The notes beneath the pieces are model-generated. The model did not search any database and was not told where the DNA came from. It saw only the letters and a list, made by a program, of their open reading frames with translations. Below, piece after piece: positions 487-21,990 of a stretch of DNA of 22,393 nt. How positions within the stretch are numbered: the stretch's first letter is position 1; every line of letters begins with the position of its first letter. This DNA is from a virus. Where the stretch lies: positions 1 to 22,393 of IMG/VR virus record IMGVR_UViG_3300049791_000019. One strand, written 5' to 3'. A program made the position numbers and the translations under genes.

Positions 487-795
487 TCATTTGCCATTCA
501 ATTTCTTCTGCAACTGCCGCTCAGAAAACCCGATCTTGGCAGCGATCACCCGCCAGCAAAGTCCGTCCGCCTTCATCTCGCGCACCAGATCCATATACTC
601 ATCAGTGATCTGTGTCTTCCTGCCTGGCCCGCCAAGATCGACGCCAGCCTCATGCAGACGCCTATGCACGCATGATCTGTGGAATCCAAGCTTTTCGCCT
701 ATCGCACCAGTCGAATAACCTCTGGCAAACAAAGCCTTCATTTCGTCTATGAACTCAGTTCCAAGCTTCACTCTTTCTTCGCATTCACTTTCCAT
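487..795 (-). CDS. double helix-turn-helix protein, paralogue 1
   Basis: A 102 aa protein with two predicted helix-turn-helix units. The first, around residues 17-45, has RGYST, IGEKLG and a basic VHRRL helix. The second is at the C terminus and has IAAKIGFSERQLQKKL. This suggests a sequence-specific DNA-binding protein, perhaps a regulator or homing-like recognition module without a nuclease. It aligns without gaps over 85 residues with the next upstream gene, with about 41 identities by my count, so the two are tandem duplicates. ATG at 795 is chosen because GAGG lies 7 nt upstream; ATG at 801 is possible but too close to that site. It overlaps the upstream gene by 11 nt. Confidence 0.8.
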   Translation of the reverse strand: MESECEERVKLGTEFIDEMKALFARGYSTGAIGEKLGFHRSCVHRRLHEAGVDLGGPGRKTQITDEYMDLVREMKADGLCWRVIAAKIGFSERQLQKKLNGK

Positions 796-1057
796 ATACA
801 TACCTCTGGAGTTGTCGAGCGGAGAATCCAATTTCATCGCTTATTTCAATCCAGCCTTTTCCAGCATCAAGCATCTGCCTGATCAATACTGCATAATTAT
901 TAGCAGATGCCTTTTTGTTATTCGGCCAATTTGTATCTATCCCAGCAGACATAAGATGGCGGCGAACTGTTTCCTTGCTGATTCCTAGTTTCTCGCCGAT
1001 ATGCCTAGTCGAATAGCCGCGACTAAACAGGTCTTTCATTTCTTCAACACTATGCAT
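785..1057 (-). CDS. double helix-turn-helix protein, paralogue 2
   Basis: A 90 aa protein with the same two-unit architecture as its downstream neighbour. The first unit contains RGYSTRHIGEKLG and VRRHL, and the C-terminal unit contains IGFSARQLQR. The segment after the first unit, AGID, matches AGVD in the paralogue. The likely role is DNA binding; the target is unknown. ATG at 1057 follows GAGG with 8 nt spacing. The variable parts (recognition-helix positions after IGEKLG, and the linker) differ between the copies, as expected if they now bind different sites. Confidence 0.8.
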   Translation of the reverse strand: MHSVEEMKDLFSRGYSTRHIGEKLGISKETVRRHLMSAGIDTNWPNNKKASANNYAVLIRQMLDAGKGWIEISDEIGFSARQLQRYVYGK

Positions 1058-1182
1058 TTGTTAAACCTCGTTACTCGATCCATTGCAACCCAGTGGCCAA
1101 CTCCGAAACATGCGCCGATCTTGCGCCATGAAAGTCCTAATTCGCGGAACAGTGCGGCCTCTTCGATTTGGTTTGGTTTCAT
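1036..1182 (-). CDS. mini helix-turn-helix protein, 48 aa
   Basis: A short gene fills the space between the cupin and the duplicated helix-turn-helix genes. It starts at ATG 1182, overlapping the cupin stop as ATGA, and ends 22 nt inside the next gene. The product begins MKPNQIEEAALFRELGLSW and continues RKIGACFGVGHWVAM. This reads as a single helix-turn-helix (ELGLSWRKIGACFGV), the same idea as the repeated units next to it. Coding is supported by the overlap and the lack of any gap, but the ribosome-binding site is weak, so translational coupling to the cupin is likely. Confidence 0.65.
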   Translation of the reverse strand: MKPNQIEEAALFRELGLSWRKIGACFGVGHWVAMDRVTRFNKCIVLKK

Positions 1183-1706
1183 TTATAAAGCCCGAGATAT
1201 GTGCGCCATTGAACTTTCAGGCCGTCAACCAAGAAACCCCAAGTCCCTTGGTATGGACCGCTAATGAATAGCGTCCACACACCATCAGGCGGAACATATG
1301 TGATGCGGTGATATTCACCAAAGCGCAATCTTGCGGTATCTCCGGGCCTGCGATGAAATCTCTCGGTCTCGAAAAAGAATGGATTGCCGGTCAATCTCTG
1401 CTCTGTATATGCGCCATGCAGAATGATAGTTCTGGCATTCCATGGATGGTCATGCAGATGGCGATCTTGATCTGGCAGGCGGATCCAGTGGATGCGGATA
1501 CTCCACGGGAACCACTTGTACTTTGAGCCCATCTGTTGGCCGTCGATGCTCTCATATCGATTGAATAGCCAATATCGCTCCATGTAGACCAGCCCATCTT
1601 TCACGATTGGCGAGTATGGAGTTTTCATTGCTCTATCGACTAGCCATCTTGTAATGGCCGGTCTTGATATGATCCGCGCAATCAACTGCCAGGATTTATT
1701 GATCAT
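1179..1706 (-). CDS. cupin-fold protein, 175 aa
   Basis: The central part carries a cupin-type metal site: RHLHDHPWN with His83, His85 and His87, then ILHGAY (residues 96-100), and a second-motif His133 in RFGEYHRI. Two-motif cupins bind a metal and act as dioxygenases, isomerases or sugar-binding proteins. The substrate here cannot be read from sequence. Proteins with a similar LHDHPW motif occur in phages (recollection). ATG at 1706 follows GGAGGG with a short spacer; it sits 1 nt after the stop of the depolymerase-like gene, so the two are co-translated. An in-frame upstream ATG would overlap that gene and is less likely. Confidence 0.75.
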   Translation of the reverse strand: MINKSWQLIARIISRPAITRWLVDRAMKTPYSPIVKDGLVYMERYWLFNRYESIDGQQMGSKYKWFPWSIRIHWIRLPDQDRHLHDHPWNARTIILHGAYTEQRLTGNPFFFETERFHRRPGDTARLRFGEYHRITYVPPDGVWTLFISGPYQGTWGFLVDGLKVQWRTYLGLYK

Positions 1707-1707
1707 G

Positions 1708-2508
1708 TTAGCCCTCCAGAAACCCCGTAATAATATTCGCCGCAACTTCAGCCTTGGTCAGCAGAAACAAATGCCCATCGTCAAATACATGCAGATCAGA
1801 ATTAGGAATCCATCTGGCTAGATTCTCGGTATTAACTATTTTTATCAGCGGATCATCAGAGCCAGATAAAATTAGTGTCTGCTGCTTGATCTTGTGCAAC
1901 CAATGAATTGACGTCCAACCCCACACCGCGCCAGTCTGGTAGTAGTAACCAAGGCCGCCAGAAGACTGCATCTTTGCGGCATGCGAGATGCAAAGGTCTC
2001 TATTGGTTCTGAATTCGCCACCATAAATCTCTGGAGCTATTTCAGCAGCGTAGTTAGGATCGATGTAACGCTTAGGACTAGCCATCAACGCCAACACTCT
2101 GAGGCTAGGCGGAACCATTGCGACTCCGCATGACGTGGCTGCCAGGATCAATCGCCGGCAGTGAGTCGGATGATCGTAGGCGAACTGCTGCGCCAAAAAT
2201 CCGCCCCAACTAAGACCGATTACGTCGACCTGAGCATGCCCAAGATGATCGAGCATCTTGGTTGCCAATCTCGCCAAGCAACTAAACCTATACGGCAGCA
2301 CTGGCGTAGGCGAGCCGCCGACACCAGGCACGTCGAAGGCTATGATCCCCTGTTCAGGATCAAGCTTCTCGGCGAATGGCAGTACCAGTTCGAGGCTGGC
2401 GCCTATGCCATTGAAGATAAGCAACGGTGGCTTGGATTGGTTTCCTTGGCGCGTGGCGATTCGAAGTGATTGGCTTCCGATTGTTATTGTTTTGAAGGTG
2501 AATGTCAC
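1708..2508 (-). CDS. phaZ: PhaZ-like intracellular polyhydroxyalkanoate depolymerase (alpha/beta hydrolase)
   Basis: A 266 aa alpha/beta hydrolase with a complete catalytic triad: nucleophile Ser100 in GLSWGG, Asp219 in SGSDDPLI and His246 in DDGHLFLL. The oxyanion-hole region LLIFNGIGASLELV (29-42), IAFDVPGVGGSPTP (56-69), MASPKRY and WTSIHWLHKI match, from memory, the medium-chain-length PHA depolymerase PhaZ of Pseudomonas, whose triad is Ser102-Asp221-His248; spacing here is identical. That enzyme attacks intracellular storage granules and releases 3-hydroxyalkanoic acids. The start is GTG at 2508: it overlaps the upstream stop as GTGA and has AAGGAG 8 nt before it. Length is near the usual 283 aa. 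Finding it in a phage operon is unusual. A related alpha/beta hydrolase with another ester substrate is the main alternative. Confidence 0.85.
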   Translation of the reverse strand: MTFTFKTITIGSQSLRIATRQGNQSKPPLLIFNGIGASLELVLPFAEKLDPEQGIIAFDVPGVGGSPTPVLPYRFSCLARLATKMLDHLGHAQVDVIGLSWGGFLAQQFAYDHPTHCRRLILAATSCGVAMVPPSLRVLALMASPKRYIDPNYAAEIAPEIYGGEFRTNRDLCISHAAKMQSSGGLGYYYQTGAVWGWTSIHWLHKIKQQTLILSGSDDPLIKIVNTENLARWIPNSDLHVFDDGHLFLLTKAEVAANIITGFLEG

Positions 2509-3176
2509 GGGTTCAGCTCCTTGAGCTTGTCGCCAGAAACCAATGCGGTGTATGCCGCCCATGCGTCGTCGCGATTAGCAAACGCTGTGACGATCTTGTA
2601 CTTGCAGTTTCCAGTTTCGAGCGTGATGAACCCCTTAGCAAGCGGCGATACCGGCGCGGGCTGCTCGGTGTAGACCGGCACACAAAACCGATCGTCTTTT
2701 TCGAATTTGCATCCGATTCGACCAGTGCCGCCCGAGGCTCTCATCGCTTTGGATATACCGATCATGCCGAATGTCGTAAAGCAGAACGGCTCACCCTGCC
2801 CACTCTTCAGCCGCTCGATTTCAGCGCGCAACTCATCCTGCTTTTCAATTGCAGCCTTGTAGGCGATGGCGTCGTTCTTTTGTTCGCGCTCCAGCCGTGC
2901 GATGGTGGCTTTAGCTGTTTCCAGTTCAGCTTGTGCAATCGAGACATCTGCGGCGCATTTCACTGCGTTGAAGTCAGGAACTGGGAAGCCTGCCATTCGA
3001 TGCTCAAGCATCAGCCAAACAAAGTTGTACTCCGGCCAATCCTTCTCGACCACGACGCAATCCACGCGGGCCCGGTCGAATTTCTCCAGCAGCGACGGAA
3101 CTAGCGTCCATTGCTGATTGGTCAGCTTTTTGTATTTGATAACCGCGTAACGATCTTCGCGTTCGAATTCACTCAT
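2505..3176 (-). CDS. hypothetical phage protein with central coiled coil, 223 aa
   Basis: The N-terminal part (RYAVIKYKKLTNQQ, then a VVEKDWPEYNFVWLMLE stretch) resembles uncharacterised Pseudomonas phage proteins. Residues about 78-125 are rich in Ala, Glu, Lys and Leu and probably form a coiled coil. The C-terminal part contains PVYTEQPAPVSPLAKG and ends with an Ala-rich helix. No catalytic motif is visible. ATG at 3176 has AGGTGA 6 nt upstream and overlaps the previous gene by 8 nt. The stop overlaps the GTG of the PhaZ-like gene, so both are made from one transcript. Confidence 0.75.
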   Translation of the reverse strand: MSEFEREDRYAVIKYKKLTNQQWTLVPSLLEKFDRARVDCVVVEKDWPEYNFVWLMLEHRMAGFPVPDFNAVKCAADVSIAQAELETAKATIARLEREQKNDAIAYKAAIEKQDELRAEIERLKSGQGEPFCFTTFGMIGISKAMRASGGTGRIGCKFEKDDRFCVPVYTEQPAPVSPLAKGFITLETGNCKYKIVTAFANRDDAWAAYTALVSGDKLKELNP

Positions 3177-3582
3177 GGCCGATCACCTTTTCTACTGAGT
3201 TGTGCCATTCATCGCTTGCGCCGTTAACCATGCCGCGAGCCTGACCAAGCAGAATTTTGAGCGTGGCGATGGTGGCTTGCAGTTCGGCGAGTTCGGGCGG
3301 GGCGGCGTACAAGGGTTGAAAGTCTTTTACCCGGCCATCGTCGAACAGGAACTGCGCAGGCTTTTCGCGATCAATTTCGTCTCTCCAGTTTTCAGGTCCA
3401 GCGGAGGTCACGCAACCAGCGAACCGAAACGAATAGGCAAAAGGCTGGCGCTCGACGACAGGGGCGGCGAGTAGGGCGCGCAGCTCATCCGCAATACTCC
3501 ATCCCATGGATTCCGCGCAGCGCTCCAGATGCTTGAGCATCCCGCGTGACACTTCAATTTTACTGCTCATTCGCTTGCTCAT
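3169..3582 (-). CDS. hypothetical phage protein, Ea22-like style, 137 aa
   Basis: The N terminus is helical (SRGMLKHLERCAESMGW). The middle has a FLFDDGRVKDFQPLYAAPP segment, and the C-terminal third is a helix starting ELAELQATIATL. A QPLYAAPP-type motif before a coiled coil is common in early-region phage proteins of the Ea22/Eaa type, whose functions are not established. The start at 3582 overlaps the upstream stop as ATGA. A second ATG at 3570 is also possible. The family link is only by resemblance. Confidence 0.7.
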   Translation of the reverse strand: MSKRMSSKIEVSRGMLKHLERCAESMGWSIADELRALLAAPVVERQPFAYSFRFAGCVTSAGPENWRDEIDREKPAQFLFDDGRVKDFQPLYAAPPELAELQATIATLKILLGQARGMVNGASDEWHNSVEKVIGHE

Positions 3583-4142
3583 TTCCGCGATACCCCTTCG
3601 TCTAGGCGTAGATCGCTACCGACGCGCTCTGAAACTTCGTTGAACTTCATCGCTACAGCTTGCCCAAGGTCGATGCCATAGCGAGCGGCCAACAAATCCG
3701 CGTATGTCACAACGTCTGCAAGTTCTTTGGCCAAGGCTAGAACGCGTTCATCGGTCAGGCCATCGCGATCAATCTTCTTGACTACGTTGCAAGCCTCGCC
3801 ACATTCGCCAGCCATTGCGTTACCCCACCACGGTCCGTCTTTTGACTCCAGCGGGAAGAATGCCTCGTTGCAACGCTGTTCACTGATTTTGCGGAGGTCC
3901 TTGAATGACAGCTGCGAGCGCTTTGGCCCGTAGCGAATATCCTGTTGGCGCTGCTGGTCATCCCATGTTGCAAGGTCTTCACAGTCCGGTTCATAAAACG
4001 GTTCGCTGATGAACGTGCAGCCGCCCATGCATTGATCCCCGTGCCAACCACCAGCGTGTCGACCAGTGAGTTTCGCAAGTGCCGTAGAGCCGCCACCGTA
4101 ACGCACGACGTCGCCTATTTTTGGGTTACTCATTGTTCTCAT
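3579..4142 (-). CDS. MazG-like nucleotide pyrophosphohydrolase with N-terminal extension
   Basis: Residues about 78-178 form a MazG-type all-alpha domain with the metal-binding pattern ExxE (Glu113, Glu116 in AGECGEACN) and ExxD (Glu140, Asp143 in KELADVVTYADLL). Such enzymes hydrolyse (d)NTPs to the monophosphate and pyrophosphate; in phages they may adjust nucleotide pools or ppGpp-related starvation signals. Residues 1-70 form an extra domain beginning NPKIGDVVRYGGG with Cys38, Cys42 and a nearby Cys54, typical of small phage proteins that are sometimes separate genes. Start ATG 4142 overlaps the previous stop as ATGA. Two other ATGs (4133 and, further upstream, 4190) are less well placed. 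Confidence 0.85.
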   Translation of the reverse strand: MRTMSNPKIGDVVRYGGGSTALAKLTGRHAGGWHGDQCMGGCTFISEPFYEPDCEDLATWDDQQRQQDIRYGPKRSQLSFKDLRKISEQRCNEAFFPLESKDGPWWGNAMAGECGEACNVVKKIDRDGLTDERVLALAKELADVVTYADLLAARYGIDLGQAVAMKFNEVSERVGSDLRLDEGVSRK

Positions 4143-4513
4143 GATTCGCTTACTCCCGATTCGGTGGGCATCGTCAGCTTGGCGACACATGCATCACGAT
4201 CCTTTTCGCTGCTGTAGCCGTTGGGGTTGTTCTGGCCATCGCCATATCCCCATTCGTATGCATCCTTGACGGATTGGTCTATTCGATCCTGATAAGCCTT
4301 GATCGTCTCAGCTTGGTTCGCATTCCGCTGCTCGGCGGCGGTCAGCTTGTCGTGCTGTTCAGATATGTGAACTTGCGCGTTGTATTCGTTGGTGAGCGAT
4401 GTGGCCAGCTCTTCCATCATCGCATCCTCGCGGGCCAGTGCGGCTTCGTAGTCCACCGAATAGATGTACTCGCCTGCCGCGCCTTTGAATCGATACCGAT
4501 TCACTTCACTCAT
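4139..4513 (-). CDS. hypothetical protein with coiled coil, 124 aa
   Basis: Starts MSEVNRYRFKGAAGEYIYSV, continues with a long predicted helix rich in Glu, Gln and Ala (about residues 22-80), and ends in a Gly- and Asn-rich segment (WGYGDGQNNPNGYSSEKD). No domain is recognised. The start at 4513 overlaps the upstream stop as ATGA and follows AAGGAGGG, one of the strongest ribosome-binding sites in the arm, so it may be well expressed. Confidence 0.7.
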   Translation of the reverse strand: MSEVNRYRFKGAAGEYIYSVDYEAALAREDAMMEELATSLTNEYNAQVHISEQHDKLTAAEQRNANQAETIKAYQDRIDQSVKDAYEWGYGDGQNNPNGYSSEKDRDACVAKLTMPTESGVSES

Positions 4514-5160
4514 AACCCACCCTCCTTAGCCGGCCTTCCACCTTTCCCACGCGGAATACCCAATTTGTATTTTTTGCTTGCCGCAGTCACCGCAACAAAC
4601 GACGAATGACAGTATTTGCAGATCGGCCAGGTTCCGACCATGCCTGCTGCCAGCGCTTCACGGATCTTTGCCACCAACGCCAACTCATTATCCAGCTTCT
4701 GCACATCACGCTCGCGCTTATGGAATTTGTCGGCACACGGATCATCGGCGAAATTCTCACGCAGAAGTCGCCAGACTCGATCAGGACTGCACTTCAATTC
4801 TTTGGCTAGGAACGTGGTGTGCGGCGCGGTATCCAGAAGCGTCTGTAGCAGCGCTACGGCCTCGGCATCACCATTGCGAACCTGATAGTGGAGCTTGCCG
4901 GCCTTGCGCTTGGCGTAGGCTTTCAGCTCGCTCTGCGTGAAGTTGTTGCTTTTGTTCGTGACCAGATTAGTACCAAATGGAATAGACTGTGCTGCACTAG
5001 CACCAGCCGGAACTACCGTGATCTTGCCGCTGTTCTTTTGGAACTCGGCGATCTTCTGCTCGATCTCCAGGCGGATGCGTTCACGCGGACAAATCACAAC
5101 GCCTGACCAGTCATCAGCGCTGATCATGTCCTCAATGTCTTCCTCGATAAATATTGTCAT
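4510..5160 (-). CDS. putative DNA-binding protein with zinc-knuckle-like CxxC
   Basis: A 216 aa protein. An acidic N terminus is followed by a Pro- and Ala-rich linker. A helix-turn-helix-like segment lies near residues 110-135 (TTFLAKELKCSPDRVWRLL). A CKYCHSSF motif lies near residue 180, and the tail is very basic (KKYKLGIPRGKGGRPAKEGG). The combination suggests nucleic-acid binding. ATG 5160 has GAGAGGTG upstream. It heads a run of overlapping genes down to the helix-turn-helix cluster. No named family is recognised; resemblance to Pseudomonas phage hypotheticals is from memory. Confidence 0.75.
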   Translation of the reverse strand: MTIFIEEDIEDMISADDWSGVVICPRERIRLEIEQKIAEFQKNSGKITVVPAGASAAQSIPFGTNLVTNKSNNFTQSELKAYAKRKAGKLHYQVRNGDAEAVALLQTLLDTAPHTTFLAKELKCSPDRVWRLLRENFADDPCADKFHKRERDVQKLDNELALVAKIREALAAGMVGTWPICKYCHSSFVAVTAASKKYKLGIPRGKGGRPAKEGGL

Positions 5161-7034: not shown

Positions 7035-7070
7035 GTTGCTAGTGACAGCAACTCGGACAGACGGTATCAT
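7035..7070 (+). promoter_or_regulatory. promoter of the XRE gene with overlapping operator
   Basis: On the + strand GTGACA (7042-7047) and TATCAT (7065-7070) are spaced by 17 nt, a good sigma70 promoter. The inverted repeat GTTGCT-AGTGAC-AGCAAC (7035-7052) covers the -35 box. This is where an autoregulating Cro/CI-type protein would bind. Confidence 0.6.
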
Positions 7071-7080
7071 GCCCGTACTG

Positions 7081-7092
7081 TGTGCATGCACA
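7081..7092. promoter_or_regulatory. perfect 12 bp palindrome TGTGCATGCACA
   Basis: A perfect palindrome lies just after the expected transcription start of the XRE gene and 21 nt before its ATG. The same core occurs once more in the window, at 15764-15775, in the region between the two arms. A shared operator is the simplest reading. Confidence 0.5.
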
Positions 7093-7113
7093 TACTTGCC
7101 AACTGGGGGAATA

Positions 7114-7314
7114 ATGAATATTGCGAAATCGATCAAGGCCGCGCTTGAGTTGAGGGGAATGAAGCAGATGGACCTGGCTGACAAGCTGGGGATTCACAAG
7201 GCCGGAGTTAGCCAGATCATTGGGCGGGATTGCGTGAATACGGACACGCTCGGGAGGATTGCTGAGGCGTTTGGGATGAAGGCTAGCGAACTGGTAGCGC
7301 TGGGGGAGGATTGA
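7114..7314 (+). CDS. XRE/Cro-family transcriptional regulator, 66 aa
   Basis: A compact HTH_3 protein. MKQMDLADKLGIHKAGVSQI (residues about 15-34) is the helix-turn-helix with the typical Ala-Asp-Lys-Leu-Gly turn and Val-Ser-Gln-Ile recognition helix; DTLGRIAEAFGMKASELVAL completes the five-helix fold. At 66 aa it is Cro-sized and lacks a peptidase or oligomerisation domain. ATG 7114 follows GGGGGA; the upstream in-frame ATGs lie before or within the promoter elements. It is the only + strand gene in the left arm, converges with the methylase-like gene and probably represses its own promoter through the palindromes described here. Confidence 0.9.
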   Translation: MNIAKSIKAALELRGMKQMDLADKLGIHKAGVSQIIGRDCVNTDTLGRIAEAFGMKASELVALGED

Positions 7315-7358: not shown

Positions 7359-8057
7359 TTATTTGTGGTTAGCCTCGAATGTAGCCAGTACGAAGCCGCG
7401 AGGTGTTGCGCTGCGGATATTTTTGGTGCGAGTGGACTTGCCGCCACATTTCTTCCAGCCAGGATTATCCCTGTGTAGCGGCTCCACGCGCTTGCGCTCT
7501 GGCTCTTCGAATTCTGGCCCCTTCCATATGCAGGTATTTTTGTTGTAAGCGTCTTGCGGAGGATAGATATCCGGGTAGATCGGGTGTTCATCGTCATTCG
7601 GAAGATAGCCACCGAAGTCAGTCGGATTGAATGAGAAGTCTGGTTTGCGCCACATAGTTGAGATGACGCTTACCGGGTTCTCGAACGCCCAGCGTTCAGT
7701 GTTGCAAGCCTTTGCGACTGCCGGCACCAGCATGCAGAGAGAGAGAGCCTCCTGCTGGAATGCCGGGTTAGCCTCAGCCTTCTTCGCGAAGTGCTTAGCA
7801 CCAGCAACGGTCAGATGCGTGCATTCAGGAAACCCGAACACGAAATCAGCCTTGCCGCCGATCATCCGAGAGATGTCAGCCGCGTGCCTCTCGATCTGAT
7901 CGTGATGGAACCACATGCCAACCTTGAACAGATTGCCTTCTCGAGTGATCCCTTCCTGGTGCTGACCGTCGAATATCCAGCATTCGTATCCAGCAGCCAG
8001 CCACGGCTGAGCCATTAGGCCTGTGTAGTCGTAGAGGAAGATCGCCACTCTATTCAT
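7359..8057 (-). CDS. diverged cytosine-5 DNA methylase-like phage protein, 232 aa
   Basis: The opening IFLYDYTGLMAQPWLAAGYE (residues 6-25) has the layout of motif I of C5 cytosine methylases (a Gly-containing loop followed by AGYE). FGFPECTHLTVAGA (74-87) replaces the PPCQ catalytic motif IV and keeps a cysteine, Cys79. AFENPVSV corresponds to the ENV motif. A C-terminal RTKNIRSATPRGF block is conserved in similar phage proteins (recollection). It may methylate phage DNA, or be a catalytically altered relative. ATG 8057 is chosen because motif I begins there; the 8105 ATG lacks a site and would overlap the small membrane gene. Confidence 0.7.
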   Translation of the reverse strand: MNRVAIFLYDYTGLMAQPWLAAGYECWIFDGQHQEGITREGNLFKVGMWFHHDQIERHAADISRMIGGKADFVFGFPECTHLTVAGAKHFAKKAEANPAFQQEALSLCMLVPAVAKACNTERWAFENPVSVISTMWRKPDFSFNPTDFGGYLPNDDEHPIYPDIYPPQDAYNKNTCIWKGPEFEEPERKRVEPLHRDNPGWKKCGGKSTRTKNIRSATPRGFVLATFEANHK

Positions 8058-8085
8058 TGTTATGGACTCGTACGCGGGAGGTTGG

Positions 8086-8193
8086 TTATAGGCCGACAGC
8101 GACATCTATCATCATGAGAACCATAAGGCCGAAGATGAACAGCGTTACTATCGCAAGGGCTATGTCGATCAGGGTTTCGCCGGGGGTGAGCAT
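8086..8193 (-). CDS. small membrane protein, 35 aa
   Basis: Starts at ATG 8193 behind AGGAGGG with 5 nt spacing, an excellent site. Residues 8-28 (LIDIALAIVTLFIFGLMVLMM) form one transmembrane helix; little else remains. It is translated just after the 20 aa gene and ends 28 nt before the methylase-like start. Function unknown. Confidence 0.65.
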   Translation of the reverse strand: MLTPGETLIDIALAIVTLFIFGLMVLMMIDVAVGL

Positions 8194-8482: not shown

Positions 8483-8499
8483 TGTTGTTGGTACTGGCA

Positions 8500-8519
8500 A
8501 AGCCCCAGTTAAGGGGCTT
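8500..8519 (-). terminator. terminator-like hairpin after the 86 aa gene
   Basis: AAGCCCC and GGGGCTT form a 7 bp stem with a 6 nt loop, 17 nt past the stop at 8537. On the - strand it is followed by only TTT, so it may be leaky; genes downstream follow the same direction. Confidence 0.55.
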
Positions 8520-8536
8520 GAGGTGGGCGGGATTGG

Positions 8537-12904: not shown

Positions 12905-14221
12905 TCATTTCCCCTTGACTGGTAGCCATTGATCGCCATCGATCATTTCGACATAACCGTTCTTAACCAAGTCATCCCACGCATTCTTCCAGTTGGATTT
13001 TGCGGTATTTTCATTCATGTCCTCAGCTCTGAGCATGCCAATGATGTCGCCACGAATTACCATCCGATTTTCAGGGCTTCCTCCATTACTGGCTGATCTA
13101 ACGCGCAGCTGGCTCATGATCATCGCCTTGACTCGCTCGCTCCCGCCAGGCTTGTAGATTTTTTCGGCTCGCCCCAATGGGGTTTTATCGTCGCTATCAA
13201 TACGATCTAGCATCGCCGACATTTTCGGGACCAGGCTCGTTAGCTTTAGGCCTTTCGCGCTGTAATCTCCAGTCTCGACAACTGCGAACTCGAACGCCAT
13301 ATCTTCTGGCTCAGAAGCATCCTTGATCTTGTCGGTATGCAGTTCGGCGTAGAGTCTTTCTTTCCCCCGCTTCAGTCGGTAGCTGAACCCGCAGTCGCCC
13401 AAGGCCACCGAAGATCCGCGCATTGAGTCCTTGTTATCCTTACCCGTGTGACCAACAAATAGAACGGTACATCCGTCAAATGAGTCGCGAATATCTTCGC
13501 AGCCGGCAATAAATGCCCGCATGTCTGCGGCATCATTTTCGTTGCCCTGGAAGCACTTTGAAAAAGTGTCGATCACCACAAGCACATATTTCATCCCGGT
13601 GGTGCGCTGAACCTCACGCATAGCAGCCTTTAGCTGTTCGCGATCAATTGCATCATTGACCATCACGCTACGCTCCAGGATGGTCACGGCATAGTTTTCG
13701 TTCCCAGTCCTGATGCGCCATGCCTTTTTGCGAAGGTGCATCTCGTTACCTCCCTCCGCCGCGATGTAAAGCACCATGCCAGGATAATCAACATCGATAC
13801 CATTCCATTTGCTTGCGCTTGCGACATGGCAGGCGATATCAAGCGCCAGAAAACTCTTATAGCTGCCAGGCGCACCATAAATGTATCCGACATCGTTATG
13901 CGGCAACATGCCATATATAAGCCACTTCTTATTGCGCACCCGCTCAATAGCCTTCTCTTCGTCGAACTCAATGCAGGCTAGAAACTTCGCCCCAAGTTCC
14001 GCATCGTCGATCTTTTCTTCTGCGGCTACTGATGACCTTGGTGCGCGCTTAATGTCATCGCTCACCCTCTTAGCAAAGTCTCTGTATTCCTCCAGCTGGA
14101 CAACTGGCTGCGTTACATCGAACTCTTCTCTAACTGGCGTATCAGATGCTAGCTCCATGAAATCAATCATCAACTCTTCAGATTCCGGCACTTCTGACGG
14201 ATGCTCGAACTCTTCCGTCAT
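12905..14221 (-). CDS. RepA-like P-loop helicase/ATPase (AAA_25 type), 438 aa
   Basis: A RecA-fold ATPase. Walker A is GAPGSYKS at 116-123, followed by the helix FLALDIACHVA. MVLYIAAEGG (149-158) is the strand carrying the catalytic glutamate, and Walker B is YVLVVIDTF (212-220) with Asp218. A sensor-like CTVLFVGHTGKD and an RGSSVALGD arginine region follow. This order matches the RepA/KaiC-like hexameric helicases used by plasmids and phages for replication. The first about 95 residues are acidic and the last about 80 look like a winged-helix region. Start ATG 14221 has GGAGG 8 nt before it and overlaps the upstream stop as ATGA. It lies close to the iteron-like region, which fits a replicative role. 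Confidence 0.85.
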   Translation of the reverse strand: MTEEFEHPSEVPESEELMIDFMELASDTPVREEFDVTQPVVQLEEYRDFAKRVSDDIKRAPRSSVAAEEKIDDAELGAKFLACIEFDEEKAIERVRNKKWLIYGMLPHNDVGYIYGAPGSYKSFLALDIACHVASASKWNGIDVDYPGMVLYIAAEGGNEMHLRKKAWRIRTGNENYAVTILERSVMVNDAIDREQLKAAMREVQRTTGMKYVLVVIDTFSKCFQGNENDAADMRAFIAGCEDIRDSFDGCTVLFVGHTGKDNKDSMRGSSVALGDCGFSYRLKRGKERLYAELHTDKIKDASEPEDMAFEFAVVETGDYSAKGLKLTSLVPKMSAMLDRIDSDDKTPLGRAEKIYKPGGSERVKAMIMSQLRVRSASNGGSPENRMVIRGDIIGMLRAEDMNENTAKSNWKNAWDDLVKNGYVEMIDGDQWLPVKGK

Positions 14222-14562
14222 GAATTAGCCTCCACCTGCTCTACCGCCAATTTGAGGCGAGCCGCATCTACAGCATTCAGCACTTCCCCGCGAGCAATAA
14301 GCCCTTTCGCACATTCAATAACCATTCGATTAAATTCCTGCTTTGGCGGCCTAAGCACTTCGACTTCAAAGCCATGCCACTCTTGACCATCGAAATAATA
14401 AATATCGCCATCCGTTCGGCACCCGAACACATACACATCGCCAAAGCTCAGGACGAAACCAATCCTGAATTGGTCGATAGGGAATGCTTTCATGCGCCCA
14501 TCTGCGGCAATCTCTGGCAACCGAACCCCATAAGCATCAAGGACGGCTGCCTGTAGATTCAC
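14218..14562 (-). CDS. hypothetical protein, 114 aa
   Basis: The start is taken as GTG 14562, which overlaps the upstream stop as GTGA and has GGAGG 5 nt before it. An in-frame ATG at 14583 also exists, but it lies in the WRCWR coding repeat of the upstream gene and has no site. The middle (DQFRIGFVLSFGDVYVFG, then DGDIYYFDGQEWHGFEV) looks like a small beta-sheet domain; the C-terminal third is helical (NRMVIECAKGLIARGEV). Function unknown; helicase neighbourhood suggests replication or recombination. Confidence 0.7.
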   Translation of the reverse strand: MNLQAAVLDAYGVRLPEIAADGRMKAFPIDQFRIGFVLSFGDVYVFGCRTDGDIYYFDGQEWHGFEVEVLRPPKQEFNRMVIECAKGLIARGEVLNAVDAARLKLAVEQVEANS

Positions 14563-14810
14563 ACAATCCTCCAGCAGCGCCATTCATTCTGATGTTTGCC
14601 AACGATGAATTTTGCATCGCCTTTCTTGTTCTCGCGGCATACGGAGACTCTGGCGGAACTAAGCTCTGCGTCTTCGATATCAAAGGAATCGCCGGATACC
14701 ATCTCGGCAAACGGGTAACGAGCTGGTCGGCCAACCCCTACTCCTTTGGAGGGGATCGGAATGTCGCTTCTCATGTCGAGCGCGTCGAGCTCTTCGTCGG
14801 TCATTCTCAT
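14559..14810 (-). CDS. WRCWR-tailed phage protein, paralogue 1, 83 aa
   Basis: The start is ATG 14810, one base overlapping the upstream stop (TGATG), with GGAG 9 nt upstream; ATG 14804 is an alternative. Over 69 residues it aligns without gaps with the next gene upstream: SDIPIP, GRPARYPF, EM, GDSF and the C-terminal EWRCWRIV. It also has an acidic N-terminal extension (TDEELDALDMRSD). Function unknown; small conserved modules with a WRCWR end are found in Pseudomonas phages (recollection). Confidence 0.75.
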   Translation of the reverse strand: MRMTDEELDALDMRSDIPIPSKGVGVGRPARYPFAEMVSGDSFDIEDAELSSARVSVCRENKKGDAKFIVGKHQNEWRCWRIV

Positions 14811-15031
14811 CACGAGACTCTCCAGCAGCGCCATTTTCTTTCATGCAAGCCAATCAGGAATTCTTCACCATGTTTGATCTTGCGTCTCCATGCTGCGGTT
14901 CTCACGGCCTTGATCCTTTCCTTGAGAAAAGGGAATGAATCACCAGGCTTCATTTCTTCAAAAGGCCACGCTGCCGGACGACCTTTTGCTACTGGGGTTT
15001 CTGGTGCTGGGATTGATTTCTTGATCTGCAT
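14810..15031 (-). CDS. WRCWR-tailed phage protein, paralogue 2, 73 aa
   Basis: ATG 15031 has GGAGG 6 nt upstream and follows the promoter at 15090. It reads KSIPAPETPVAKGRPAAWPF, then a GDSF motif, a basic AAWRRKIKHGEEF part and KWRCWRVS. It is the tandem copy of the downstream gene, the first cistron of the leftward early arm. The basic surface and Trp/Arg end are consistent with nucleic-acid contact, but no function is known. Confidence 0.75.
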   Translation of the reverse strand: MQIKKSIPAPETPVAKGRPAAWPFEEMKPGDSFPFLKERIKAVRTAAWRRKIKHGEEFLIGLHERKWRCWRVS

Positions 15032-16027: not shown

Positions 16028-16324
16028 ATGCCAATGTTCCGCAAAAAGCCTGTAGTGATCGAGGCGATTACCTTTGATGATCTGGTTGCTTATGGTGTCG
16101 CCAATGGCGGGAACATCGTAAACGGCATGCCATGGTCGTTCCAGTACAAGGGTCACGGGGTAACGCACGAAAACGACAACTGCTACTTGATTCCGACACT
16201 AGAAGGCGTCTTTCGGTTCGATCGTGGCGACATGCTGATCACTGGCGTAAAAGGCGAGATCTACCCTTGCAAGCCTGACATCTTCGCTGCCACCTACGAC
16301 CCTGCTGAGCCCGCCACGCCATGA
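16028..16324 (+). CDS. conserved phage protein of the FRKKPVVIEA type, 98 aa
   Basis: MPMFRKKPVVIEAITFDDL at the start and GDMLITGVKGEIYPCKPDIF near the end are the signature of a common small phage protein with a beta-rich fold and no known activity. The start at ATG 16028 has CAGGAG 7 nt upstream. A longer frame from 15866 exists but adds 54 residues of low-quality sequence. It overlaps the next gene by ATGA and is the first gene of the rightward arm. Confidence 0.85.
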   Translation: MPMFRKKPVVIEAITFDDLVAYGVANGGNIVNGMPWSFQYKGHGVTHENDNCYLIPTLEGVFRFDRGDMLITGVKGEIYPCKPDIFAATYDPAEPATP

Positions 16325-16503
16325 ACCTACAACCGTCAGTCCTAGTCTCCGGCATCGAGTGGAAACTCTTCAGCGTCGAGTTCAAGAGCCCTGATGGCCG
16401 ATTCTCGGCATACTTCTACGCGATTGATGCTGAGCATGCGAGCTACCAGGTTGAGGCGATCAGGGAGAATGGGGTGGCTGTGGAGATACAGGCGATTGTT
16501 TAG
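16321..16503 (+). CDS. small phage protein, 60 aa
   Basis: Starts with ATGA overlap. The sequence MNLQPSVLVSGIEWKLFSVE, then FYAIDAEHASYQVEAIRENG, suggests strands followed by an alpha helix, a compact single domain. It forms a two-gene unit with the previous gene, followed by a terminator. Function unknown. Confidence 0.7.
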   Translation: MNLQPSVLVSGIEWKLFSVEFKSPDGRFSAYFYAIDAEHASYQVEAIRENGVAVEIQAIV

Positions 16504-16522
16504 CCGCGACGATTAACGATTG

Positions 16523-16548
16523 AGCCCCGCCATGATGCGGGGCTTTTC
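16523..16548 (+). terminator. rho-independent terminator before terS
   Basis: AGCCCCGC, loop CATGAT, GCGGGGCT, then TTTCAT. An 8 bp perfect GC-rich stem followed by four T in all (CTTTTC). It separates the two small genes from the packaging operon. Confidence 0.8.
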
Positions 16549-16557
16549 ATTTGCGGG

Positions 16558-16563
16558 TATAGT
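16558..16563 (+). promoter_or_regulatory. possible -10 box for terS operon
   Basis: TATAGT, identical to the left-arm promoters, lies 29 nt before the terS start and just after the terminator. The -35 position (ATGCGG, 17 nt spacer, inside the terminator stem) is poor, so this is tentative. Confidence 0.35.
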
Positions 16564-16592
16564 TATTCCATCTGATTGAGGGGCTTTAGACA

Positions 16593-17033
16593 ATGGTTTT
16601 TACCGAGGAACAAAAGACCGAATTCAAGACAGAGATCTGCGATAGGATTTCAGACGGCACTCCTTTGCGCGCTATTTGCCGTGAAGAAGGAAAGCCAAAT
16701 TGGAGGACTGTTTATCTTTGGCTTGAAGAAGATCCCGAGTTCAATGCACACTTCGCGCACGCGAGGGAAATTGGATATGACGCGATTGCCGCTGACGCGC
16801 TCCTAATTGCCGACACTCCGCAAGAAGGTGTTAAATATGAAGATGGCCCACTTGGATCAAAAGAAGTTCGCGAGGACATGCTAGGCCATCGCAAACTTCA
16901 AATTGAAACTAGACTAAAGTTGTTGGCTAAGTGGTCGCCCAAGAAGTATGGCGAGAAAGTTGATCATGTCAGTAGTGACGGGAGCATGTCACCCAATCCT
17001 ACAATCATCGAACTTGTTGCTCCGGATAAATGA
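16593..17033 (+). CDS. terS: terminase small subunit
   Basis: A 146 aa protein with an N-terminal helix-turn-helix (IRDRISDGT-like: ICDRISDGTPLRAICREEGK, then PNWRTVYLWLEEDPEF), followed by helices (FAHAREIGYDAIAADALLIA) and a C-terminal LKLLAKWSPKKYGEKVDH motif. This is the layout of Sf6/P22-like small terminases, which recognise the packaging site on phage DNA and load the large subunit. The stop overlaps the ATG of terL as ATGA. GAGGGG lies about 9 nt upstream of the start. Its partner and the family motifs make the call solid. Confidence 0.9.
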   Translation: MVFTEEQKTEFKTEICDRISDGTPLRAICREEGKPNWRTVYLWLEEDPEFNAHFAHAREIGYDAIAADALLIADTPQEGVKYEDGPLGSKEVREDMLGHRKLQIETRLKLLAKWSPKKYGEKVDHVSSDGSMSPNPTIIELVAPDK

Positions 17034-18268
17034 CAACTGTTCAGCTCGCTTTGCCACCAAAGTTAATACCGGTCTTCAGCGGGTCTGCTCGTTATCGTGG
17101 CGCTCATGGCGGAAGGGGGTCCGGTAAGACTCGCAGCTTCGCATTAATGACCGCCGTACGCGCTTATATGTTCGCGGAGGCGAATGTCAGCGGAGTTATT
17201 CTTTGCGGTCGCGAGTTCATGAACTCGCTTGAAGATTCTTCAATGGAAGAGATCAAGCAGGCGATCCGAGAAACTCCTTGGCTTGATGCCTACTTCGATA
17301 TTGGCGAGCGATACATCCGCACGCGCAATCGTCGAGTGCATTACGTGTTCGCCGGCCTGAGACATAACTTGGACAGCATCAAGTCGAAGGCGCGAATCCT
17401 GATTGCATGGATTGATGAGGCAGAAGGTGTATCTGAGGTCGCGCTACAGAAGCTCCTGCCCACCGTGCGAGCTGATGATTCCGAGGTCTGGATTACTTGG
17501 AACCCGGAGTTGGACGGCAGCCCTGTTGATACTAGGTTCCGCAAGAACATTTCCGATGACGCGAAAATCGTCGAATTGGGATATGCGGACAACCCGTGGT
17601 TTCCAGCCGTACTGGACGGTGAGCGCCGTCGTGATCAGCGCAGCCTTGACCCGGAAACCTATGCCTGGATCTGGGATGGCGCATATCGCGAAAACTCTGT
17701 TGCGCAAATCTTCGCCAACAAATATCGGATATCAGAATTCGAGCCTGGCGCCGACTGGGATGGACCTTACTTCGGCCTGGACTTCGGCTTCTCGCAAGAC
17801 CCGACTGCCGGCGTCAAGCTATGGATTAGCGGACGAACTCTTTACGTCGAGCGCGAGGCTGGCGGCATAGAGATCGAAAACGACGACATGGCTAGGTTGC
17901 TGATCAAGGAATTGCCTGACATTGAGAGGCATGTAGTGGTCGCGGACAACGCCCGCCCCGAACTGATCAGCCATCTCAAGAAGCCAGACCCAAATCATAT
18001 GCGCCCTAACCTGCCAAAGATCGAGGCTTGTTCGAAGGGCAAAGGCAGCGTTGAGGATGGCGTATCCTTCATGAAGGCCTTCGACGAAATCGTTGTCCAT
18101 GCTCGCTGCAAGGAAACGATCAAGGAATTCAGGATGTATTCCTACAAGGTCGACCGGCTCTCTGGCGATGTGCTGACCGATATCGTCGACAAATGGAACC
18201 ACTACATGGACGCCATCCGATACGCGCTTGAGAAGGTTCGCAAGAAATCTCAGTTCTTCGCCGGTTGA
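17030..18268 (+). CDS. terL: terminase large subunit (PBSX/Terminase_3 type)
   Basis: A 412 aa packaging motor. The ATPase domain has Walker A GGRGSGKT (27-34), and Walker B ILIAWIDEAE with Asp129 and catalytic Glu130. The nuclease domain has three acidic residues in family positions: Asp251 in YFGLDFGFSQDP, Asp306 in VVADNARPE and Asp394 in HYMDAIRYAL. The enzyme pumps DNA into the procapsid and cuts concatemers. The length is on the short side for this family (about 420-480 aa). The ATG at 17030 overlaps terS as ATGA. Headful versus cohesive-end packaging cannot be settled from this window. Confidence 0.95.
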   Translation: MTTVQLALPPKLIPVFSGSARYRGAHGGRGSGKTRSFALMTAVRAYMFAEANVSGVILCGREFMNSLEDSSMEEIKQAIRETPWLDAYFDIGERYIRTRNRRVHYVFAGLRHNLDSIKSKARILIAWIDEAEGVSEVALQKLLPTVRADDSEVWITWNPELDGSPVDTRFRKNISDDAKIVELGYADNPWFPAVLDGERRRDQRSLDPETYAWIWDGAYRENSVAQIFANKYRISEFEPGADWDGPYFGLDFGFSQDPTAGVKLWISGRTLYVEREAGGIEIENDDMARLLIKELPDIERHVVVADNARPELISHLKKPDPNHMRPNLPKIEACSKGKGSVEDGVSFMKAFDEIVVHARCKETIKEFRMYSYKVDRLSGDVLTDIVDKWNHYMDAIRYALEKVRKKSQFFAG

Positions 18269-18318
18269 CACCATCCCTATAGCCGCGCATGATCGCCAAA
18301 TCAACCAAGGAGACCATC

Positions 18319-18546
18319 ATGGCAATTACCACCAAGAAAGTGCTTAAGTGGATATGGTCCGAGTTCAAGCGCGAGATGCAGATTCAGAAGCCTGGGCCCG
18401 AGTACTACGCTGCGAGGCGCAACTCCGAGCCAACGGTTGCTCGGCGCTACAGGTTCAGCAGAGGCATCGATGCTGGCTGCGGCTTGCTACTCATGATAGT
18501 GGTCGCCCCTGTGGTCTTTCTCATACTAGTGGCGTGCTTCGGCTGA
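18319..18546 (+). CDS. C-terminal membrane-anchored protein, 75 aa
   Basis: ATG 18319 follows AAGGAG with 6 nt spacing. Residues 1-50 are basic and helical (TKKVLKWIWSEFKREMQIQK). Residues 52-74 (CGLLLMIVVAPVVFLILVAC) are a transmembrane helix. A membrane protein between terL and structural genes may be a lysis or assembly factor; it lacks typical holin features beyond one TM segment. Tentative function only. Confidence 0.7.
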   Translation: MAITTKKVLKWIWSEFKREMQIQKPGPEYYAARRNSEPTVARRYRFSRGIDAGCGLLLMIVVAPVVFLILVACFG

Positions 18547-20614: not shown

Positions 20615-20652
20615 AAAGTATCATCATGCACACTATTCAGCGGAATCCATCC

Positions 20653-21990
20653 ATGGCTTTTTACGATCGCCTCAAGTTCTGGCATAAGCCCGAGATCAAA
20701 TCAGGCGGTCGCGTCTCCGAGATCCCTATTCAGCGCGGATCGCTGATGGACATGATCTTTGGGCATGGTGGTGGAAGAATGACTCCGCATGCAGCCATGG
20801 AGTTCTATCGGACCTGCTCAAGTGTCGCCATTGCCGTCGATATGATTGCCGATGAGATCGAACACTTGCAGCCGGTTATTCAGATGGAAGATGGCAAGTA
20901 TGAGAATGACCATGACCTATTGCGCCTGCTGAAATCGCCTAATGGCTTCGATAACTGGTCTGGGTTCATCGGCCAAGCCGCTCGCAGTTATCTGCTGACC
21001 CGCGAATGTTTCTACTACGGCGGCGGCGGTGTTACTCGCCCTCCACTGGAGTTGTTTGCCGTCAAGCCGCAGACGATCAGCGCCATGGAGAACGCGCTTG
21101 ACCGATATCCGCAGTCATTCATGATCTCCGATGGCCGCGCTCATGGTAGTTATCTGCGTGTTGAACGCGCCCGCAAGGTCAACTACTACGATGGCAACTT
21201 GCGCGAACTGTTCCGCGTGCATGGTTTCAGTTCGAGGACTGATGAGACTCGTGCCGATAGCCCGCTAGAGGCTGTTGCGCTCGAAGCCAAGCAACAGATT
21301 CAGGGTCGCGTTCATAACCTGGCGCTGCTTGATAACGGCGGTCGCCTAAGCCTGATCGTGCAGTTCAAAGATCCAATGACCGAGGATGAGCATATTGCCC
21401 GTCGCGATGGCGTCAACCGGGCATTGGCTGGCGCAGGAAATGCCGGTCGCATTGCCGTTGTGTCATCCAGCGATATGGAGATCCATGAAGCCGGCACAAA
21501 CAACAAAGATATGGACTATGCCAAGCTTGATGCCGTTGCGCGTGAGGCATTGTTTCTACGCTACAAGATCCCTCTGCCACTGGTGAGCAATGACGCCAGC
21601 ACCGATAATAACCTAGAACACTCGGTTTACCACCTGTATGACCGCGCCGTATTGCCGCTGGCCGATGTTCTGCTCGACGGCCTTGGGCGTATGCTGCTAC
21701 CTCGCTACGGCTTGGACCCCGCGCGGGTCTCCCTGACATTCAACCCAGAATCGATTGATGCCTTGGTCGACCGTCGCGTCAAGATGCTTGCCGAGCGTCA
21801 GAAGTTGGGCGTTGAGACGATCAATGAATTGCGCGCTCAACTGCCTAATCGCGAGCCACTTGAAGGCGGCGATACGCTTTATCAGGCTTCGACGCTGGTC
21901 CCGGTCGGCACAGATCTATTTACTGATGACAATGTTGATGATTCGACGATTGCGGCCAGGCTGATGGCTGAGGATGAGGGCAATGACTAA
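20653..21990 (+). CDS. phage portal protein (HK97-type)
   Basis: A 445 aa protein beginning MAFYDRLKFWHKPE. FYRTCSSVAIAVDMIADEIE and NDHDLLRLLKSPNGFDNWSG are typical of the HK97-type portal family, as are the central DSPLEAVALEAKQQIQGRVH and YAKLDAVAREALFLRYKIPL regions and the late NNLEHSVYHLYDRAVLPLAD helix. The dodecameric portal sits at one capsid vertex, anchors the terminase during packaging and later the tail. An upstream ATG at 20626 has no ribosome-binding site; ATG 20653 has GGA 8 nt before it. Placement just downstream of terL, with structural genes between, is unusual but compatible. Confidence 0.9.
   Translation: MAFYDRLKFWHKPEIKSGGRVSEIPIQRGSLMDMIFGHGGGRMTPHAAMEFYRTCSSVAIAVDMIADEIEHLQPVIQMEDGKYENDHDLLRLLKSPNGFDNWSGFIGQAARSYLLTRECFYYGGGGVTRPPLELFAVKPQTISAMENALDRYPQSFMISDGRAHGSYLRVERARKVNYYDGNLRELFRVHGFSSRTDETRADSPLEAVALEAKQQIQGRVHNLALLDNGGRLSLIVQFKDPMTEDEHIARRDGVNRALAGAGNAGRIAVVSSSDMEIHEAGTNNKDMDYAKLDAVAREALFLRYKIPLPLVSNDASTDNNLEHSVYHLYDRAVLPLADVLLDGLGRMLLPRYGLDPARVSLTFNPESIDALVDRRVKMLAERQKLGVETINELRAQLPNREPLEGGDTLYQASTLVPVGTDLFTDDNVDDSTIAARLMAEDEGND

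Follow-up and report, generated by a model that had tools for sequence, protein, structure and literature searches.

Bacteria store polyhydroxyalkanoate (PHA) under carbon excess and draw on it in starvation. An open reading frame at positions 1708 to 2508 of an IMG/VR virus record, a 22-kb metagenomic fragment of 22,393 bases (the whole of which is called the window here), had been read in an earlier note as a PhaZ-like PHA depolymerase. This locus raises the question of whether a phage carries the enzyme that opens this reserve, how the gene came to be there, and what it would do during infection.

The reading frame is real and lies on the minus strand, which the earlier note had not given; it runs from a GTG (2508-2506) to a TAA (1710-1708). 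An in-frame ATG at 2562 is a possible alternative start, but it overlaps with the preceding gene. At the GTG, the sequence GTGA joins the start of phaZ to the stop of the preceding gene in a 4-base overlap, and together with the AAGGAG upstream (Table 1) this bears out the compact phage cluster with a good ribosome-binding site that had been described. At the other end, the ATG of the downstream gene follows the phaZ stop by one base (TAACATG) and has GGAGGG just before it. A promoter search gave no signal above chance, and placement of the gene in an early arm is suggested by its position. The motifs named earlier were all found in the protein (DVPGVGGS at 59-66, GLSWGG at 98-103, WTSIHWLHKI, and DDGHLFL at 243-249), and FNGIG occupies residues 32-36.

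Table 1. Features of the window, with coordinates on the 22,393-base record
Feature	Coordinates	Strand	Remarks
Cupin-like gene, downstream of phaZ	1179..1706	minus	PHROG 4786 'cysteine dioxygenase'; starts one base past phaZ stop
phaZ-like gene	1708..2508	minus	266 aa, TIGR02240; Ser100, Asp219, His246; lid ~131 to 195
Gene upstream of phaZ, function unassigned	2505..3176	minus	Stop overlaps phaZ start; N-terminal part 72% identical to gene of phaZ-less L209
AAGGAG, ribosome-binding-site-like	2516..2521	minus	About eight bases 5' of phaZ GTG
MazG-like gene, same leftward cluster	3579..4190	minus	86% identical homologue in phaZ-bearing L212
XRE-type repressor-like gene	7036-7314		
AAA (RecA-like/primase-helicase-like) replication protein	12905..14221	minus	69% identical in phaZ-less L208, L209
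Terminase small subunit	16593..17033	plus	
Terminase large subunit	17030..18268	plus	70% identical to Pseudomonas phage JBD44
Portal protein	20626..21990	plus	

Judged by its gene content, the record is a genuine fragment of a tailed phage; its hallmark genes encode both terminase subunits (small and large), the portal and a replication protein of RecA-like type. Because the terminase resembles that of JBD44 and its kin (70% identity over 99% of the length), the host is probably a Pseudomonas. No tRNA and no Rfam RNA were found in the window, and no close relatives were found for its gene at 4510-5160. A non-coding hairpin at 8491-8526 (AAGCCCC...GGGGCTT) and its flank are 98-100% identical to the Pseudomonas phages phiPto-bp6g and Torfinnsbu, to which there is no other match at the DNA level; it is probably a terminator or regulatory element common to Pseudomonas phages.

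The NCBIfam model that fits the window protein best is TIGR02240 (poly(3-hydroxyalkanoate) depolymerase), with 369.8 bits (E = 8e-111) against a curated equivalog cut-off of 250.6 bits. The second-best model reaches 93 bits, under its own cut-off of 390, and the models for 3-oxoadipate lactonase and other hydrolases score far under theirs, so that in the search against PhaZ families proposed in the earlier note the PhaZ equivalog leads by a wide margin. Ten phage relatives from ten loci likewise exceed the TIGR02240 cut-off (314-477 bits). In Pseudomonas putida KT2440, PhaZ has the triad Ser102/Asp221/His248, its FNGIG loop (34-38) and lid (133-192) are essential, and changes of Asn35 abolish activity (PMC12504323). 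By alignment, with the residue numbering verified on a chromosomal Pseudomonas PhaZ, the equivalents in the window protein are the triad of Table 1, Asn33 and a GxSxGG nucleophile motif; all residues reported essential in the P. putida enzyme are retained, and Ser184 is likewise conserved. Asn35, Ser102 and the FNGIG glycines (KT2440 numbering) are invariant in all 46 viral copies; 45 of these also have Asp221 and His248, and the remaining row is gapped. The AlphaFold2 model, which is of high confidence (pLDDT 91.7, pTM 0.92), inserts helices 136-196 between the core strands E117-123 and E210-216, which is the position of the lid, and the predicted fold matches alpha/beta hydrolases, including the Bacillus thuringiensis PHB depolymerase (TM 0.78); a viral structure library held no close phage match. 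The identification as PhaZ-like is thus supported by the best equivalog and the retained essential residues, and the predicted enzyme class is, with considerable confidence, that of an intracellular medium-chain-length (mcl) PHA depolymerase. Both the curated families and the intact essential residues speak against a generic esterase that lacks key residues, and this reading was rejected as fitting less well.

The window protein lacks the C-terminal tail of Pseudomonas PhaZ, and its lid hinge (190-195) reads YYYQTG against YYWQLF, keeping Y, Y and Q and changing W, L and F at residues 192, 194 and 195 (KT2440 numbering); the hinge is variable in other phage copies too. With an altered hinge and an absent tail, the specificity could have shifted, and the single hinge change S184F turned the P. 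putida depolymerase into an esterase (PMC12504323). The closest solved structure by sequence is a metagenomic esterase of about 27% identity rather than a PhaZ of the TIGR02240 family, and the best solved structures are general esterases. All this would fit a hydrolase derived from PhaZ that has ceased to be a depolymerase and acts on another substrate, such as a lipid, a lactone, a signalling ester or another polyester. We give this a slim chance, because TIGR02240 is matched far above its cut-off while the lactonase and other hydrolase models stay far below theirs, and because Ser184, Asn33, the triad and the lid are all conserved.

Three queries of IMG/VR gave 18, 26 and 45 loci, and relatives of phaZ lie in at least 45 other contigs of uncultured viruses. 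The closest of them, L001, is 77% identical and sits on a 54-kb phage contig; the others show 53-64% identity. Since many contigs derive from the same few metagenomes, their number overstates independence, and the number of gene-content groups is the safer figure: the 46 viral loci (window counted) form 14 groups when at least three shared proteins are demanded, with phaZ excluded and up to 10 kb taken on each side, and six groups when one shared protein suffices. The phaZ-bearing types range from siphophages to jumbo-size contigs of 228-307 kb. Tape measure, major tail, portal and terminase genes lie near phaZ in lambda-like siphophages. In the L018 group, phaZ has head-tail connector genes on one side and the major head gene on the other, and is the single gene there on the opposite strand. 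Elsewhere its neighbors include DNA polymerase, helicase and exonuclease (L001), tail sheath and baseplate (L223/L224), tail tube (L225), virion structural proteins and DNA polymerase (L227/L228, on 228- and 283-kb contigs), thymidylate synthase (L233, 307 kb), tail fibre and nicotinamide phosphoribosyltransferase (L068/L221, 116 kb), and NinB and replication initiation (L071/L075); in the L235/L237 group, a NinI-like phosphatase is the sole phage-type gene seen nearby. Chromosomal contamination of these contigs was unsupported where checked, as tail, capsid, portal, terminase, polymerase or other phage structural or replication genes surround phaZ in many groups. On L001, the DNA polymerase and the helicase (13049-14896 and 16037-18457) each apparently contain an intein (CIAEGTEVLT...VHN), with internal HNH-like ORFs close by. 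The nicotinamide phosphoribosyltransferase gene of L068 (229-1977) means that genes for NAD salvage and PHA mobilization coexist on that contig.

The viral copies (L001, the L018 group, L068, L212, L223, L228 and others) represent the same gene on one branch with that of the window, but the genomes around them are mostly unrelated to it, and we found no annotation or description of these copies. A tblastn search of 50,697 named phage records found no true PhaZ, only five matches of at most 30% identity. The remark that this is not a standard phage function holds for these named phages, but the gene recurs in uncultured viruses.

Each of the 25 genomes taken from one Pseudomonas genus-level group has a chromosomal PhaZ, and these are 58-61% identical to the window protein. 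In the tree with host homologues that the earlier note had called for, the window falls beside, not inside, the chromosomal Pseudomonas enzymes: these form their own branch and the viral sequences a neighboring one (support 97/92 with 12 viral rows and 84/82 with 22), within which the window groups with L001 (100/99). Joining the window to the chromosomal Pseudomonas enzymes was rejected by an AU test (p = 9e-6); moving the window and L001 there together was borderline (p = 0.051), and so was strict monophyly of the viral copies without a megaplasmid gene (p = 0.052). Because of this last value, a single origin of the phage copies, as read from the tree, is likely but short of demonstrated. 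Among 398 Pseudomonadaceae genomes, searched at E thresholds of 1e-108 and 1e-138, no window-type or L018-type copy was closer than the chromosomal gene. The GC content of phaZ tracks that of each phage (0.51 in the 0.52 window) versus 0.65-0.68 for host phaZ. Among close phage copies, dN/dS is 0.04-0.14 in two groups, indicating purifying selection; between the window and L001, synonymous sites are saturated (pS 0.77) and pN is 0.16. Identity, GC and the AU test reject a recent capture from a Pseudomonas chromosome, and with the genome search and the dN/dS values they indicate that phaZ is an old, selected phage passenger. The only bacterial-replicon sequence found inside the viral branch is the PhaZ of the Pseudomonas silesiensis megaplasmid pPL1 (1.17 Mb). 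It is 57% identical to that of the window, and inspection by eye recognized no phage structural genes near it. The nesting of this locus (L211, NZ_CP143488.1, from a plastics landfill) in the phage branch points to transfer between phage and megaplasmid, in either direction.

Two 41-43 kb records, L208 and L209, share the replication protein with the window, and neither has phaZ; L209 has a homologue of the gene upstream of phaZ, followed by other small genes. The phaZ-bearing L212 has the MazG-like and cupin-like genes in common with the window. These comparisons place phaZ in an exchangeable accessory stretch. Relatives of the cupin-like gene occur in 175 viral stretches, mostly without phaZ nearby. 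The gene at 7359-8105 (minus strand), a relative of PHROG 757 'DNA methyltransferase', is 69% identical in the phaZ-bearing L232/L075; the two phages have an accessory gene pool in common. Two small neighboring HTH proteins at 487-837 and 785-1057 (minus strand) look like tandem paralogues (RGYSTxxIGEKLG and related motifs) and are possibly a duplicated regulator.

Phages do acquire host genes, the window is a metagenomic fragment, and the related contig L209 does without phaZ; hence the gene might have been acquired recently and by accident from a host chromosome, or be the product of a chimeric assembly, and do nothing for the phage. This is very hard to reconcile with the tight junctions to phage genes on both sides, a GC content equal to that of the phage and a closest relative in another phage contig. 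Carriage by 14 groups, the AU rejection and purifying selection among the phage copies argue against it as well.

We consider it quite probable that phaZ serves as an auxiliary metabolic gene that mobilizes host PHA during infection. It is a metabolic gene of cellular origin inside a bona fide viral genome, and selection has maintained it in phages. PhaZ would be made from the compact leftward gene cluster and bind the PHA granules of the host, where the Ser-Asp-His triad beneath the lid would cut the polyester into 3-hydroxyalkanoic acids. These acids would then feed the acyl-CoA synthetase and beta-oxidation of the host, and the resulting acetyl-CoA and reducing power would support phage replication. 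In P. putida, loss of phaZ raises the PHA content, FadD2 recycles the freed monomers, and synthesis and depolymerization are tightly coupled (PMC3918157). A second PhaZ needs a reason, because the host already has one; given the coupling in the host, a phage copy that escapes it could shift the balance toward breakdown. We infer catalysis on PHA, its timing, the identity of the host and the benefit to the phage.

The depolymerase might instead mainly serve a lysogen or competition, as a moron that benefits the host or prophage rather than lytic replication. The L018 group, with phaZ alone on the opposite strand among head genes, shows a typical moron position, and the window itself has an XRE-type repressor-like gene and a terminase that comes closest to that of JBD44, a temperate phage. 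However, phaZ of the window is tightly packed among genes of the same direction, one of which it overlaps by four bases, and the gene is also carried by jumbo-size contigs, whose phages are usually virulent. The 398 Pseudomonadaceae genomes, moreover, contained no copy of either type. A role of this kind therefore seems unlikely, though less so than a change of substrate, and mobilization of host PHA in infection remains our preferred reading. Going further, we lean slightly toward a phage-adapted subfamily of PHA depolymerases that has long circulated among unrelated Pseudomonas phages (siphophages, contractile-tailed and jumbo) and liquidates the host storage polymer on infection; PHA granules would then be a target that phages generally attack when they take over the metabolism of the host.

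With the Pseudomonas enzyme (KT2440; TIGR02240), the window protein shares family, triad, FNGIG with its essential Asn, lid and predicted fold; it differs in being phage-borne and outside the Pseudomonas clade, in lower GC, in a shorter C terminus and in its hinge. Its gene lies outside any phaC1-phaZ-phaC2 cluster and has phage genes rather than phaC as neighbors; that cluster is typical of chromosomal members and no requirement for enzyme identity. Phage-borne genes of PHA synthesis (phaC, phbB, fadJ and others) have been reported, and found transcribed, in PHA-producing mixed cultures (PMC12013262). They act on the same host storage polymer but build it rather than break it down, and phaZ or a depolymerase is unmentioned there. 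Beyond that paper, a search of the open-access literature for PHA with auxiliary metabolic genes gave chance word matches, and we found no description of a phage-borne PHA depolymerase in this literature. What is new is the combination of a known enzyme with a known class of phage genes, at an unexpected breadth.

A phage depolymerase could unlock the PHA reserve and thereby link infection to PHA turnover in soil, in the rhizosphere and in bioplastic production. Viruses may thus feed on host carbon stores by a route for which we found no earlier description. The breadth across unrelated phage groups makes the role directly testable in laboratory Pseudomonas, and the phage PhaZ copies may supply new enzymes for PHA recycling.
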